Origin: Nitrososphaerales archaeon
Lineage (GTDB): Archaea > Thermoproteota > Nitrososphaeria > Nitrososphaerales > CADDZS01
Length of the DNA stretch: 64,000 nt
NCBI GenBank assembly: GCA_030041355.1
Contig: JASHNZ010000105.1
Span: 1-64,000 of the forward strand
Direction of reading: 5' to 3'
Part shown: one piece after another, positions 3,500-54,299 of the stretch
Numbering within the stretch: the stretch's first letter is position 1
How the letters are laid out: each line of letters opens with the position of its first letter
Program-made: the position numbers and the translations under genes
Notes under the pieces: generated by a model
What the model saw: the letters and a program-made list of their open reading frames with translations, nothing else
Databases searched by the model: none
What the model was told of the DNA's origin: nothing

Positions 3500-4909
3500 A
3501 TGTCCAAGACTTTTGACACCATAAATCCCGCAACCGGACAAAAAATCGCCACCTACAAGCTGTTCTCAGAGGACAAGGCTTTTGCTTATGTGAAGAAAGC
3601 AAGCGACGTCTTTGACTACAAATGGAAGCGACTCTCTGTATCAGAGAAAGCAAGTTGCTTGAAGGCTCTTGCAAAAGCTCTTCGATCCAAGAAGAATGCC
3701 TACGCTATGCTGATGTCTAAGGAAATGGGTAAACCCATCACCCAGTCGGAAGCTGAAGTTGAAAAATGCGCTTGGACAGCCGAACTTTATGCTGAAAAAG
3801 CAGAGGAATGGATGAAGGCGGAATACTCGAAAACTGATGCTGCAAAAAGCTATGTTATTCATCAACCTCTCGGCGTCGTCCTGTCAATAATGCCCTGGAA
3901 TTTTCCTTTCTGGCAGGCCTTTCGCTTTGCGATTCCCGCTGTCCTCATGGGAAATACCTCTGTGCTCCGTCACTCGAACAATTGCCCGGGCTCTGCCCTT
4001 GCAATCGAAGAAGTTTTCAGGAATGCCTCTTTCCCGGAAGGAGTTTTCTCAACTATAATTTCAGACCACGAAATTGTCTCGAAACTAATTGCTTCGGATA
4101 TGATCAGAGGAGTGTCTCTAACAGGAAGCGTCGCAGCCGGACGAACAATTGGTGAACAGGCTGGAAAGCATCTGAAAAAATTCGTGCTTGAGCTTGGCGG
4201 AAGCGATCCGTTCATTGTTCTAGAGGACGCAGATGTGCAACGAGCAGCCAAGGTTGGGACAGATGCTCGGCTGATCAACTCCGGCCAAAGCTGCATTGCC
4301 GCAAAGCGCTTCATAGTCGTAGAGAGTGTAGCCAGAGAGTTCACTGAAAGATTCATTCGAGAATTTGAAAAGAAAAAGACCGGTGACCCCATGAACCAAG
4401 ACACTGACGTGGGGCCTCTCGTAAACAAGGAAGCAGTAGTCGGGTTGGATAGACAAGTGAAAGAATCCGTCCTTAACGGAGCAAGAGTCGAAATTGGAGG
4501 TAAACCTAGAGATGGGCCTGGAGCATACTATGAGCCCACAGTTCTTACAAACGTAAATCCGGAGATGCCTGCTATGCGTGAAGAAGTTTTTGGCCCTGTC
4601 GCACCCGTTTACGTAGTGCCTGATGAAAAACACGCAATCAGAGTTGCAAATGATATCGAGTATGGATTAGGTGCTAGCCTTTGGACGAATGACTTTGCGA
4701 AAGCCAGCCAACTCGTCGAAGAAATCGACAGCGGGGCCGTGTTTGTGAACGCTCTTGTAAAGTCCGACGCCAGAATGCCTTTTGGAGGAGTGAAGAATTC
4801 CGGGATTGGAAGGGAGCTTTCTAAGTACGGTTTGATCGAATTTTCGAATACAAAATCAATTAACCTATACGAAATCGGTCAGGAGGAAGTTATCGCTAAG
4901 GTTGAGTAG
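3500..4909 (+). CDS. NAD(P)-dependent aldehyde dehydrogenase, succinate-semialdehyde dehydrogenase type
   Basis: Oxidises an aldehyde to the carboxylic acid. At 469 aa it is a full-length ALDH. Visible are the PWNFPFWQ motif (132-139), the glycine motif GSVAAGRTIG (209-218), the general base in ELGG (E231) and the catalytic cysteine in NSGQSCIAAKR (C265). The segment LRHSNNCPG (156-164) resembles the LKHA segment of the Sad/YneI subgroup of succinate-semialdehyde dehydrogenases, with Arg instead of the usual cofactor-contacting Lys. Substrate is inferred from that resemblance only. It is monocistronic as far as can be seen. Confidence 0.88.
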   Translation: MSKTFDTINPATGQKIATYKLFSEDKAFAYVKKASDVFDYKWKRLSVSEKASCLKALAKALRSKKNAYAMLMSKEMGKPITQSEAEVEKCAWTAELYAEKAEEWMKAEYSKTDAAKSYVIHQPLGVVLSIMPWNFPFWQAFRFAIPAVLMGNTSVLRHSNNCPGSALAIEEVFRNASFPEGVFSTIISDHEIVSKLIASDMIRGVSLTGSVAAGRTIGEQAGKHLKKFVLELGGSDPFIVLEDADVQRAAKVGTDARLINSGQSCIAAKRFIVVESVAREFTERFIREFEKKKTGDPMNQDTDVGPLVNKEAVVGLDRQVKESVLNGARVEIGGKPRDGPGAYYEPTVLTNVNPEMPAMREEVFGPVAPVYVVPDEKHAIRVANDIEYGLGASLWTNDFAKASQLVEEIDSGAVFVNALVKSDARMPFGGVKNSGIGRELSKYGLIEFSNTKSINLYEIGQEEVIAKVE

Positions 4910-29242: not shown

Positions 29243-29761
29243 TTACATCCTAGAAGGCGGTTTCTCGATGCTGAGAGCCCCCACCATTCCCTTGAGCTTT
29301 TCTCTCGTCGAAGCCGGTAATGATTCTGATACTGACTCCAAAAGAAGACTTTGCTGAGCTAGAATCAAACGGAAGATGTCCCTTTCCGTAACAATTCCTA
29401 CGAGTTTCTTACCTTCCATTACTGGCAATCGTCTTATGCCGTGTCTTCCCATTTGACTTAGGGCGTCCCATACAGTCCCTGTAGGCGAAATAGTCATCAA
29501 TGGTTTGCTCATAACTTGTGCCATTGTCGATCCCAAACACTCTAGCTTTTCGGCCATTCTCTTCACTAAATCTCTCTCTGTGAATATGCCAACAGGTTTT
29601 CCGTCATCAACAACCACTATACTCCCGATGTTGGAGTCCTTCATCATCTTGATGCATTCTACCAAGGGCTTTGTAGGTCCGATTGTCCTCACCTGAGTAG
29701 TCATTATACTCCCAACCGATGCATCTGCCAAAGAGACTGTTTGATTCCTAGACACCATCAT
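29243..29761 (-). CDS. CBS-domain pair protein
   Basis: 172 aa. Modules at about 15-72 (VGSIMTTQVRTIGPTKPLVECIKMM ... PVGIFTERDLVKRM) and 80-137 (MAQVMSKPLMTISPTGTVWDALSQM ... LVGIVTERDIFRLI), with an extra 35-residue helical tail. Adenine nucleotide sensing is the family role. A regulon operator and TATA box lie upstream, giving a leaderless start. Confidence 0.92.
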   Translation of the reverse strand: MMVSRNQTVSLADASVGSIMTTQVRTIGPTKPLVECIKMMKDSNIGSIVVVDDGKPVGIFTERDLVKRMAEKLECLGSTMAQVMSKPLMTISPTGTVWDALSQMGRHGIRRLPVMEGKKLVGIVTERDIFRLILAQQSLLLESVSESLPASTREKLKGMVGALSIEKPPSRM

Positions 29762-30735: not shown

Positions 30736-31221
30736 ATGTTGAATCAAAAGAACCAAACTCAAGAAAGCGAATTCCCTTTCCAGAAAATAATCGTAGCAGT
30801 TGATGGTTCTCCAAATTCGTCCAGAGCTGCGCGAGTCGCGATCACACTGTCGAAAGACTATAGCGCCAAGTTGATGGTATTACATGTCCTCCAATCTCCA
30901 ACATATGATTTGTATGCAGCTCGAGGATATGGACCTCCTCTTGTAAGGAGTATCTGGAGCATGAAGAAAAACAGGCTAGATTCTGGGCAGAACCGATCAT
31001 GTGCGAAGCCAAAAAAAGAGAGGAGTTTCATCCCGTCTTGAGATCCTATGGGAAAAGTCCTCGATAGTTTCCCCCATGGTCCAAAAGGCAGATGCCGAGA
31101 AAGTTGATCTCATTGTTCTAGGGACGCGAGGGTTTGTGGGTTTAGGAAATTGCGGACTGAAGTGCTACCAAGTGGTGTGGCAGCGCACGCTACTTGTGCT
31201 TTCTTAATAGTGAGATGGTAG
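30736..31221 (+). pseudogene. Decayed universal stress protein gene
   Basis: Starts as a normal Usp (FQKIIVAVDGSPNSSRAARVAITLSKDYSAKLMVLHVL) and then shifts frame near 30945, again near 31045, and again near 31145. Restoring the frames gives KEYLEHEEKQARFWAEP, KADAEKVDLIVLGTRGFVG and RKLRTEVLPSGVAAHATCAFLIVR, ending at TAG 31219. At least three lesions make it inactive. Confidence 0.85.
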
Positions 31222-31415: not shown

Positions 31416-31433
31416 ATTCTCAACTTTGAGAAA
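31416..31433 (+). promoter_or_regulatory. Regulon operator ATTCTCA-ACTT-TGAGAAA upstream of putative ncRNA
   Basis: 7-4-7 repeat with one mismatch at the outer right base. A TATA box TTTTAATA (31445-31452) follows after 11 bp, the standard geometry, but no protein-coding gene begins downstream; instead a structured RNA candidate does. Confidence 0.7.
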
Positions 31434-31473
31434 CATCTGTCCTCTTTTAATAGGAGTGTACCCATTACTATAT

Positions 31474-31708
31474 TCGTCGTTCGGCCAGGGCAAGGCTGTA
31501 TTCAGGGAATAACCAAGGAAACATTGAGTTAGGGCTTGATGTTCGGTACCGATCCCTGAACGTCCGGGTGAGTACGTAGGACGGGTTTCACCCGAGGTTC
31601 GACACTCTCGGATGAGGGCAAACCGAGGCACTGGCAATGAATGAAACTACGCAACCGGTGTCAAAGGAAAGCCACATGCGTCCTGAAAGCCGAACGGCAC
31701 AGGTTTTT
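31474..31708 (+). ncRNA. Putative structured non-coding RNA (about 235 nt)
   Basis: No coding frame, but a complete transcription unit: operator, TATA box 31445-31452, predicted start near 31474, and a U-tract (31704-31708) at the end. Pairings visible: closing stem 31476-31485 with 31689-31698 (10 bp, one GU); 31501-31508 with 31553-31560 (8 bp); hairpin 31521-31528 with 31535-31542; 31565-31571 with 31588-31594 (7 bp); 31607-31611 with 31623-31627; 31629-31634 with 31655-31660; and a possible long-range AGGACG (31578-31583) with CGTCCT (31679-31684). I do not see the conserved cores of RNase P RNA or the SRP S-domain. Family unknown. Confidence 0.6.
31704..31708 (+). terminator. U-tract after the closing stem of the putative ncRNA
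   Basis: TTTTT directly follows GGCACAGG at the end of the closing stem, a plausible archaeal termination signal. Confidence 0.45.
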
Positions 31709-31710
31709 CA

Positions 31711-32376
31711 TTAGTCTGGCCCGGTGTTGGCCCGTTGATATCGGATACTTTTCGTATCAATGAGATAGTCTTCAATAGAAGTTTCCTTGACCCTTCCTAA
31801 GTCTACGTCAATAATGAAAATTGCGTGCATTTCACCATAGGTTATTTGTTCGATCGGTATCTGAGGATGGGCATAATATGCGTCGCATAGATTCTTTGCG
31901 TTATTGATATCATTTACAGTTCTCATTCTCGGCAGTTTCCGGAAGAGTTCTGGAACCGGAAGAATGTTAGATATCGTAGTTCCAAGAACGAACTTGTCAG
32001 CGAACGGGCTGTATCGAGCGATCTTGCTGATTATTCTCGCATTGGTGTAAGATGAAGGTTCGAGTGCGTGCGAAGGGGGAACAAATCCAGTTTCTATCTC
32101 GACTATTATCCGTCCTTCGCCCCTTTCTCCATACACATCACAGATTAGATTCTCGCCAATTTTTCGTTCAACATTCACATTATAACTCTCGATCAGCAGC
32201 TGGTGAGCACAAATCAGTTCGATCACAGAGTGATTGATCTTTACAAGATTGCTCTTGTACATACCTACAAGATGCAGTCTGATCTCGTCAAGTTTTTGCT
32301 TAATCTCGCGCGCTTGGTCTTTAGAGACTCGTTCAGATATTGTTTTCAAATCTGAATCGAATTTCTTTACATCCAA
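31711..32376 (-). CDS. Conserved protein, possibly nuclease-like
   Basis: 221 aa. A helical first third is followed by ERKIGENLICDVYGERGEGRIIVEIETGFVP, which has the D ... E-x-E spacing of PD-(D/E)xK nucleases (with Glu-Thr in place of the final Lys), so the match is weak. The second half (KIARYSPFADKFVLGT, IFIIDVDLGRVKETSIEDYLIDT) is alpha/beta. The gene precedes nothing on its strand and is preceded by the phosphoribosyltransferase 9 bp away, so it is the last gene of a three-gene transcript. Confidence 0.6.
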   Translation of the reverse strand: MDVKKFDSDLKTISERVSKDQAREIKQKLDEIRLHLVGMYKSNLVKINHSVIELICAHQLLIESYNVNVERKIGENLICDVYGERGEGRIIVEIETGFVPPSHALEPSSYTNARIISKIARYSPFADKFVLGTTISNILPVPELFRKLPRMRTVNDINNAKNLCDAYYAHPQIPIEQITYGEMHAIFIIDVDLGRVKETSIEDYLIDTKSIRYQRANTGPD

Positions 32377-32385
32377 TTTGGACCC

Positions 32386-33045
32386 TTACGCTACTTTCTG
32401 CAAATCATGCTGTGAATTTACGTCGGAGAGGATTCTTTTTACTTCTTCATCTTCGACCTGTTCAAAATTTTCATAAAATTCACCTATTGCAAAGAAGGGT
32501 TCGGGTGTCTCAAGACACACCACTTTGTCGGCAACCCGTGTGAGCCTCGTCACTGTGTCTCGAGGTGCAACACCTACTGCAACAATAATGTTCTTGGGAT
32601 TTTTCCTTCTCAAGAACCTGATTGCAGCGATCATTGTATTTCCAGTTGCTACCCCATCGTCCACTATAATGACAGATCTCCGGCGCAAATCCGAAAACGG
32701 GTGGTGCCCAAGGTACTTGCGCATGCGCTCATGAATTTCTTGGGTCTGCCTTCTGGCCTCTGTCTGAAGGTATTTCTCGCTTATTCCTAGCATAGAGACA
32801 GTCTCTTTGTCGATGATCACTTCACCATCCTGCGAAACTGCACCAACTGCGAACTCTGGCTGTCCTGGACAACCTATCTTCCTTGTGATCACAAGATCCA
32901 GCGGAGCTCCCAGGACAACTGCTATCTCCCTTGCCACGGGAACGCCTCCCCGAGGTATGGCAAGCACTATCGGTTCGCTTATCTCTTGTAACCTTATCAC
33001 TCTATCCGCCAGGAGCTGCCCAACTTGGGATCTATCTCGAAACAC
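32386..33045 (-). CDS. Phosphoribosyltransferase-domain protein
   Basis: 219 aa. The PRPP-binding loop is SVIIVDDGVATGNTMIAAI (VDDGVATG), and the N-terminal half has VLAIPRGGVPVAREIAVVLGAPLDLVITRKIG, typical of the stand-alone family often fused or adjacent to dienelactone-hydrolase-like proteins in bacteria. The base or substrate is unknown. It is 6 bp downstream of the alpha/beta hydrolase, matching that association. Confidence 0.87.
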   Translation of the reverse strand: MFRDRSQVGQLLADRVIRLQEISEPIVLAIPRGGVPVAREIAVVLGAPLDLVITRKIGCPGQPEFAVGAVSQDGEVIIDKETVSMLGISEKYLQTEARRQTQEIHERMRKYLGHHPFSDLRRRSVIIVDDGVATGNTMIAAIRFLRRKNPKNIIVAVGVAPRDTVTRLTRVADKVVCLETPEPFFAIGEFYENFEQVEDEEVKRILSDVNSQHDLQKVA

Positions 33046-33766: not shown

Positions 33767-33784
33767 ATTATCAATTTTGAGAAT
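33767..33784. promoter_or_regulatory. Regulon operator ATTATCA-ATTT-TGAGAAT, bidirectional
   Basis: Hybrid-arm 7-4-7 site between two divergent genes. On the plus strand a TATA-like box TTTTTATC (33796-33803) follows after 11 bp and leads to ATG 33835; on the minus strand a weaker TAGATAAG (33748-33755) follows after 11 bp and leads to the hydrolase. Both promoters can use the one site. Confidence 0.75.
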
Positions 33785-52719: not shown

Positions 52720-54299
52720 ATGCAAAAGAAATGGGTTCGCTTTAATCTACATCAAAACTACCCGATAAATGCGAGTTCTAAACCAGCTTTGAGCTCAGAT
52801 GCCTCTCGCACCAAGAACCCATTATCGGAAGGAGCTCAAGTATCTTCAGCGACCGCGAGCGAAGACGGATTAACTTCCGGAGAAGCCGCCAAAAGACTCG
52901 AGTAATACGGACCCAACGAAATCCAGGAAAAGAAGCCCTCTCGACTACTTTCCTTTCTGAGATTTTTCTGGGAGCCCATCCCCTGGATGATAGAGGTGGC
53001 CGCGGCTATTTCAGCCCTAATCCAGCACTGGGACGACCTTGCGATTATCGCCTTGTTATTGGGCATCAATGCGGTAGTGGGATTTTGGCAGGAAAACAAG
53101 GCTAGCAATGCTATCGAACTACTCAAGCAAAGATTAGCTCTCAAAGCTATGGTCCTAAGAGATGGAAAGTGGCCGAGCTTCCGGCTAGAGAGCTAGTACC
53201 CGGAGATCTTGTGCGTTTGCGTCTGGGAAACATTGTGCCTGGCGATGCTAAGCTCACAAGCGGCGAGTATTTACTAACGGATGAGTCCGCGCTTACGGGC
53301 GAGTCTCTTCCGGTAGAAAAGCATCCATCAGACCAAGTATACGCATCGTCAATTGTTCGTCAAGGCGAGATGAAACGCTCTAATAACAAAGACTGGCATG
53401 AATACGTACTTCGGCAAGACCACCGAACTTGTAGAAGAGGCTGAGACAAAGAGTCACTTTCAGAAAGCGATCGTAAAGATTGGCGATTATCTAATTGCAA
53501 TCGCAGCGATTCTAGTTACGATCACCTCGCTGGTCAGTCTCTTTCGAGGACAAGAAATCTTGGAAATACTCCAGTTCGGTCTAGTCCTTACCGTGGCCGC
53601 AATCCCTGCTGCGCTGCCCGCGGTGCTTTCCGTCTCGATGGCTGTGGGAGCAGAGGCGCTGGCAAAGAAAGAAGCCATAGTCTCGAAGCTTGTGGCAATA
53701 GAGGAGCTGGCGGGAGTTGACATTCTCTGCGCGGACAAAACTGGCACAATTACGAAGAACGAACTCACCGTCGGACAAATCAAGGCATTGCGAGGATTCG
53801 GAGAACGAGAGATCTTACTTTACGCAGCTCTCGCGTCGAGAGCTGAGGACAAAGATCCCATCGATGACGCGATCATCAAGAAGACCCGGACAACTAATGG
53901 CATTCTCCAGTCGACCCTATTCTACAAGATCCTATCCTTCAAGCCCTTCGACCCGGTCTCCAAGCGCACAGAGGCAACCTGCGAAGGAAGTGATGGTTAA
54001 ACCTTCCTCGTCTCCAAGGGTGCTCCGCAGGTAATTCTTTCACTCGTCCAAGACAAAGAGAAGGTTGCCGAGGATACCAACGCATCGGTAGCTGAATTTG
54101 CATCAAAAGGTTACCGGGCTCTCGGCGTGGCCAGAACCGACGGATTGCAAGGAAATTGGAGCTATATTGGGCTAATCGCCCTTTACGATCCACCGCGTGA
54201 GGATTCCGGGGAGACCATATCGATTGCAGAGTCGATGGGAATACAAGTGAAGATGATCACGGGTGACCACATAGACATCGCAAGAAAAGTTTCTTAGGC
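52720..54299 (+). pseudogene. Truncated, frameshifted P-type H+-ATPase
   Basis: Fragments in order: an N-terminal piece with a CAA-to-TAA nonsense change (LE*YGPNEIQEKKPSRLLSFL, near 52904), helices 1-2 (EPIPWMIEVAAAISALIQHWDD), the A-domain TGES motif (DESALTGESLPVEK), a frameshift near 53380, helices 3-4 (VAAIPAALPAVLSVSMAVGAEAL), the phosphorylation loop DKTGTITKNELTVGQI, another stop near 53998, and GMQVK-like MITGDHIDIARKVS ending at TAG 54296. Everything after the P-domain is missing. The sequence resembles P3A proton pumps. Confidence 0.9.

Follow-up and report, generated by a model that had tools for sequence, protein, structure and literature searches.

A conserved structured RNA of Nitrososphaerales archaea, predicted from covariation, that matches no catalogued RNA family

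The RNA Locus and Its Flanks

The window analyzed here is the 64,000-nucleotide stretch of contig JASHNZ010000105.1 (assembly GCA_030041355.1, from a Nitrososphaerales archaeon). Its forward strand carries a predicted structured RNA of 223 bases at 31476–31698, running from the 5′ strand (P1) to the 3′ strand (P1′) of a closing helix and supported by our models R1 and R2 together with covariation. Upstream are an exact copy of an operator palindrome, TTCTCAACTTTGAGAA (31417–31432), and a TATA-like box on the forward strand, TTTTAATA (31445–31452), about 27 bases before P1; downstream is a tract of five T residues (31704–31708, forward strand). A first-pass annotation of the sequence had described a standard TATA box, a 10-bp closing stem followed by a U-tract, and the lack of any ORF. 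The first three are present as described. As to the last, mechanically called ORFs do overlap the region, but any one reading frame is fully open in at most nine of 40 homologs, and homolog lengths (226–255 nt) fall in all three residues modulo 3, so that with no conserved frame the locus is not coding.

The next gene downstream, on the reverse strand and therefore convergent with the RNA, encodes an orphan protein that we call CL0 (31711–32376), a candidate partner found near the RNA in seven families. A phosphoribosyltransferase (PRTase) gene lies upstream of CL0 on the same strand (32386–33045; Pfam Pribosyltran, 5e-21). Just 5′ of the RNA are two out-of-frame pieces of universal stress protein (30736–31207, forward strand), apparently a broken Usp gene, and farther along the window a short, apparently truncated ORF (53398–54000, forward strand) resembles part of a cation-transporting P-type ATPase.

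When 65 homologs are aligned on P1, the upstream sequence is A-rich and BRE-like at −35/−34 and T/A-rich from −30 to −25, with T predominating at −29/−28. This spacing is promoter-like, as for an archaeal BRE/TATA promoter, and would place the RNA start at or just before P1. On the other side, 48% of the same homologs have a run of at least four T residues within 15 nt 3′ of P1, vs. 6.6% of background windows, and on these statistics the T5 tract is a probable terminator. The run is mostly absent in members of family f2 and absent in f10 (labels f1–f55 are those of this analysis only). Together, the TATA element and the T-run would mark an autonomous transcription unit. Members of f10 have a near-invariant CAACCAAATATCA just after P1′ (e.g., positions 4473–4490 of L033), between the RNA and a PRTase gene, which is possibly a second promoter or a tail of the RNA.

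Operator and Stress Genes

The RNA had also been described as lying under a regulon operator, and motif counts bear this out: with up to two mismatches allowed, the operator matches 38 times on both strands of the window, vs. 4.6 expected and at most 10 in any shuffle. Apart from that of the RNA, the strong sites in the window precede ORFs, among them the genes for Usp, CBS, VKOR, ferredoxin, and SAM synthetase. The exact operator TTCTCAAnnnTGAGAA is common to the RNA gene and the stress genes in the window, and an extended 40-base block of the RNA promoter shares 95% identity with promoter sequence of the CBS gene starting at 29761. A second copy (33768–33783, one mismatch) precedes a string of hydrolase, PRTase, and CL0 genes; because this string has its own operator copy, the RNA and CL0 are probably co-regulated in the window. 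In the window lineage, the RNA is probably switched together with the stress regulon (Usp, CBS, and hydrolase-PRTase-CL0).

Most f10 homologs have the operator at the same position, about −58 to −60 relative to P1, with 0–3 mismatches (5% of background windows reach two or fewer). Upstream of the RNA in f17 there is only a half-site, and in f2, f8, f9, and f13 no operator was detected ahead of it. The operator was thus found in some lineages only, and the RNA family is wider than the regulon: the earlier description of a stress-regulon RNA applies to the window lineage and to most f10 members. Other repeats occur at comparable places elsewhere. In f9 (L083, L090, L098, L214, and others), another palindrome, GATCTATATTGATC (its variants include CTATATTGATAG), lies about 30–45 nt upstream of P1, just 5′ of the TATA box, which suggests control of the RNA by a different regulator in this family. 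Four f2 members (L077, L078, L080, and L081) have yet another inverted repeat, of the TTGAC...GTCAA type, before the RNA promoter.

Secondary Structure and Covariation

The predicted fold consists of P1 (10 bp), P2a/P2b, and three arms enclosed by P2, namely P3/P3b, P5 with hairpin P6, and P7/P8 (all positions below are on the forward strand). The 5′ strand of P1, GTCGTTCGGC (31476–31485), pairs with 31689–31698, exactly the closing stem proposed from the single sequence; all 10 of its pairs show double changes among homologs, and 95% of aligned cells are paired. Inside it, P2a (CAGG, 31486–31489) pairs with 31682–31685, with double changes in three of four pairs, and P2b (31494–31498) pairs with approximately 31675–31680 in a register that differs between families. 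The first arm is formed by P3, TTCAGGGA (31501–31508, pairing with 31553–31560; double changes in six of six counted pairs, 78% of cells paired), and by the apical hairpin P3b (31520–31528 with 31535–31543; five of seven counted pairs). P5 (31561–31569 with 31606–31614) shows double changes in all nine pairs, the last being T-T in the window member, and the P6 hairpin, CGGG-TTTCA-CCCG (31582–31594), falls where, in 25 of 40 homologs, the best hairpin ends in a GNRA loop.

The third arm (31617–31673) reads GGC-AAA-CC ... GG-AAA-GCC, with a 3 × 3 A-rich internal loop as its near-invariant core and the P8 stem at 31627–31634/31655–31662. Most of the invariant bases of the whole RNA are in the P7 arm (GGC-NAA-C ... 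G-AAA-GCC-ACAU), and its internal loop is almost invariant. The GGC and GCC of P7 are paired in 39–40 of 40 sequences, the adjacent G-A opposition is present in 39 of 40, and ACAT at 31674–31677 is invariant.

The folding energy of the region is −87.5 kcal/mol, compared to −72.7 ± 4.4 kcal/mol for dinucleotide shuffles (z = −3.3). Our first model, R1, was based on 18 sequences and had double changes in 33 of 61 predicted pairs. In the later structural alignment (40 rows, 38–60% identical to the window member), standard pairs fill 91.3% of paired cells, vs. 29–39% if one strand is slid by 1–3 columns, and double-change cells number 440, vs. 152 in shuffles. Plain shuffles ignore relatedness, and we therefore also used a tree-aware null in which the inferred substitutions of each branch are redistributed. 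The covariance analysis, which the first-pass annotation had proposed as a check, found compensatory changes in 35 of 42 helix pairs, 20 of them significant against the tree-aware null (E < 0.05), compared to none of the 27,495 other column pairs. The covariation thus exceeds what phylogeny accounts for, as is characteristic of a conserved structured non-coding RNA.

Comparison With Known RNA Families

The first-pass annotation recognized no family and no RNase P or SRP core, a reading upheld by the Infernal search that it had suggested: no Rfam 15 family matches at any credible score. There were no matches in the whole window at gathering scores, only a chance match to the locus at permissive thresholds (E = 3.1), and only chance matches among more than 20 diverse homologs; the best Rfam score of the window member was 14.5 bits, vs. 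a cut-off of 35. The covariance model for archaeal RNase P RNA (RF00373) gave no match to the locus at E ≤ 10, that for archaeal SRP RNA (RF01857) gave none to the locus or its homologs, and ARAGORN predicted neither a tRNA nor a tmRNA at the locus. The window genome has its RNase P RNA at a separate locus (G000:C58:180379–180668, 185 bits). Separate RNase P RNA loci were identified in 17 of 17 RNA-bearing genomes tested and separate SRP RNA loci in 16 of 17; archaeal SRP RNA was not detected in the window's own assembly, G000, which is 88% complete.

No published description of the RNA was found in the open-access literature. As judged from sequence comparison, the locus is a predicted structured non-coding RNA outside every catalogued family. 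By new we mean that no known RNA family matches; a relative that has been described but not catalogued is possible.

Phylogenetic Distribution

Both models recover the RNA well beyond the window. Model R1 identified it in 51 of 400 genomes of the order, and R2, built from 40 sequences, in 82 of 400, including weak partial matches in G003 and G282 that were not accepted; model E-values are rough, and the stricter filters of the large scans lose weak members, possibly including other genera of f9. The RNA was therefore undetected by R2 in most of the 400 genomes, and G001–G004, the window's congeners, have no credible copy. The window RNA itself scores 170.6 bits with R1 and 139.7 bits with R2, its sequence being part of both training sets. 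Partial model matches in G519 and G414 fall within ORFs and were also not accepted.

In three further families of the order, BLASTN returned matches of about 80 bases that are 71–79% identical. Across 84,980 genomes, a strict pattern scan picked up 15 stretches; all those with a taxon in the title are Thaumarchaeota/Nitrososphaeria MAGs, and the others are titled “archaeon.” Outside the order, R2 also matches in f18, a sister family within the same class, and at full length in another class of the phylum (G453, 114.9 bits). No phage or plasmid matches were found, and the three hits of a pattern scan of viral contigs were all coding sequence or chance.

Copy number is usually one and reaches a maximum of six in the large genome G175; there are 3–6 copies in the large f8 genomes G175, G231, and G127. 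In the RNA tree, each family with multiple members forms one group, and the family labels need the minimum number of changes. Based on this grouping, descent looks mainly vertical, with many losses.

Conserved Neighboring Genes

The most recurrent neighbor of the RNA is CL0, which lies beside it or within about 2 kb in f1, f2, f3, f7, and f10, and near it in some f8 and f9 genomes as well. CL0 was found in 71 of 80 RNA-positive genomes, vs. 153 of 320 RNA-negative ones (Fisher p = 5e-12, uncorrected for phylogeny, with the weak partials G003 and G282 scored as negative). Nine RNA-positive genomes have no detected CL0, and some of these are incomplete assemblies. Conversely, the CL0 flanks in 20 genomes with no RNA detected nearby held no credible copy (best score, 10.9 bits). 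The linkage may be inherited synteny.

No relatives of CL0 were found in Pfam, NCBIfam, or PDB. Its invariant residues are N48-H49-S50, E53, D80, and E93-x-E95, a set that may resemble that of PD-(D/E)XK nucleases, whose motif is D...ExK. An AlphaFold model of the protein (pLDDT 53) was too poor for use, and a fold search gave no credible match. The second recurrent neighbor is the PRTase gene, present in f1, f3, f8, and f10.

Discussion

The combination of freely drifting helices, a fixed loop core, an own promoter, a probable terminator, no constant downstream gene, and low copy number fits a trans-acting RNP RNA. We consider it likely, on this comparative sequence evidence, that the locus is a standalone gene for a structured RNA of about 223 nt with its own TATA promoter, whose product would act in trans as an RNP. 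Transcription would begin at P1 or slightly upstream of it; in many lineages, the transcript would end in the T-tract just after P1. Because most invariant bases sit in and around one internal loop and the helices drift freely, the RNA would present a fixed tertiary or protein-binding site and work as part of an RNP instead of by antisense pairing. Its synthesis in the window lineage would depend on the condition that releases or engages the TTCTCAAnnnTGAGAA regulator. The CL0 protein would be the leading candidate partner, which is the weakest step of the explanation; against it stands the presence of CL0 in many genomes with no detected RNA. More speculatively, and with considerably less confidence, the RNA may represent a new archaeal class of RNP or ribozyme inherited from the ancestor of the order, perhaps of the phylum, with GGC-NAA-C/G-AAA-GCC-ACAU as its active or protein-binding site, CL0 as its partner, and co-option into the stress regulon in some lineages.

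Of the remaining alternatives, an f10 leader ranks first, then a ribozyme, then a base-pairing sRNA. The RNA could be a cis-acting, riboswitch-like leader of the PRTase gene, with the standalone copies elsewhere having been relocated. The arrangement in f10, which also speaks against a standalone RNA, would fit a leader there: the RNA precedes the PRTase gene by about 40–60 nt, both lie on one strand, and the T-run is missing. However, a steady same-strand position upstream of one gene was found only in f10, and even there the conserved CAACCAAATATCA after P1 could be a second promoter. In f1, f2, f7, and part of f9, the closest gene downstream runs convergently, no same-strand downstream gene is consistently common to the families, and about half of the members have a T-tract after P1. 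We regard the leader as unlikely overall.

Somewhat less probable still is a catalytic RNA, either self- or trans-cleaving. The multi-way junction, GNRA hairpin, and near-invariant internal loop would suit one, but no Rfam ribozyme matches, there is no conserved cleavage-site context outside P1, and the proposal is pure extrapolation. That the RNA is a regulatory sRNA pairing with stress-gene mRNAs, as the operator common to both in the window might suggest, seems very improbable, given that the helices vary freely, no single-stranded seed is conserved outside the structured core, and the operator is not maintained from family to family. A divergent RNase P, SRP, or other housekeeping RNA, which the size and complexity of the molecule and the missing SRP RNA of this 88%-complete genome might bring to mind, has almost no probability and is already contradicted by the separate loci for both RNAs and by the lack of a detected copy in most genomes of the order.

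Conserved structured RNAs of large size are rare in archaea, few being known apart from rRNA, RNase P, SRP, and guide RNAs. The present RNA occurs in many families of an order that presumably includes ammonia-oxidizing archaea, is under strong structural selection, and has a candidate partner protein as well as a defined promoter. Some homologs come from near-complete genomes in a single contig that may belong to cultivated strains, so that the RNA could be studied directly.

The nearest analog, compared by description only, is Thalassoarchaea ncRNA 1 (Tan1), an unassigned structured ncRNA of 229 nt that is very abundant in a marine metatranscriptome (PMC5069720). Both are unassigned archaeal structured ncRNAs of similar length; however, reported occurrences of Tan1 are confined to marine group II Euryarchaeota (PMC5069720). 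Candidate structured RNAs from comparative genomics were likewise recognized by covariation, several being probably trans-acting and often of unknown function (PMC2864571); those with Rfam models do not match the RNA described here. Archaeal RNase P RNA (RF00373) is also structured and closed by a terminal helix, but differs in its separate locus and in giving no Rfam score here. The same differences hold for archaeal SRP RNA (RF01857; separate locus in 16 of 17 genomes), which is of a similar size class and is a neighbor of the RNA in the f7 genome G014. There, CL0 lies between the RNA and the SRP RNA (G014:C2:294261–295617), and in G059, G082, and G085 it lies about 2 kb from the RNase P RNA; CL0 may thus have a broader link to RNA genes.
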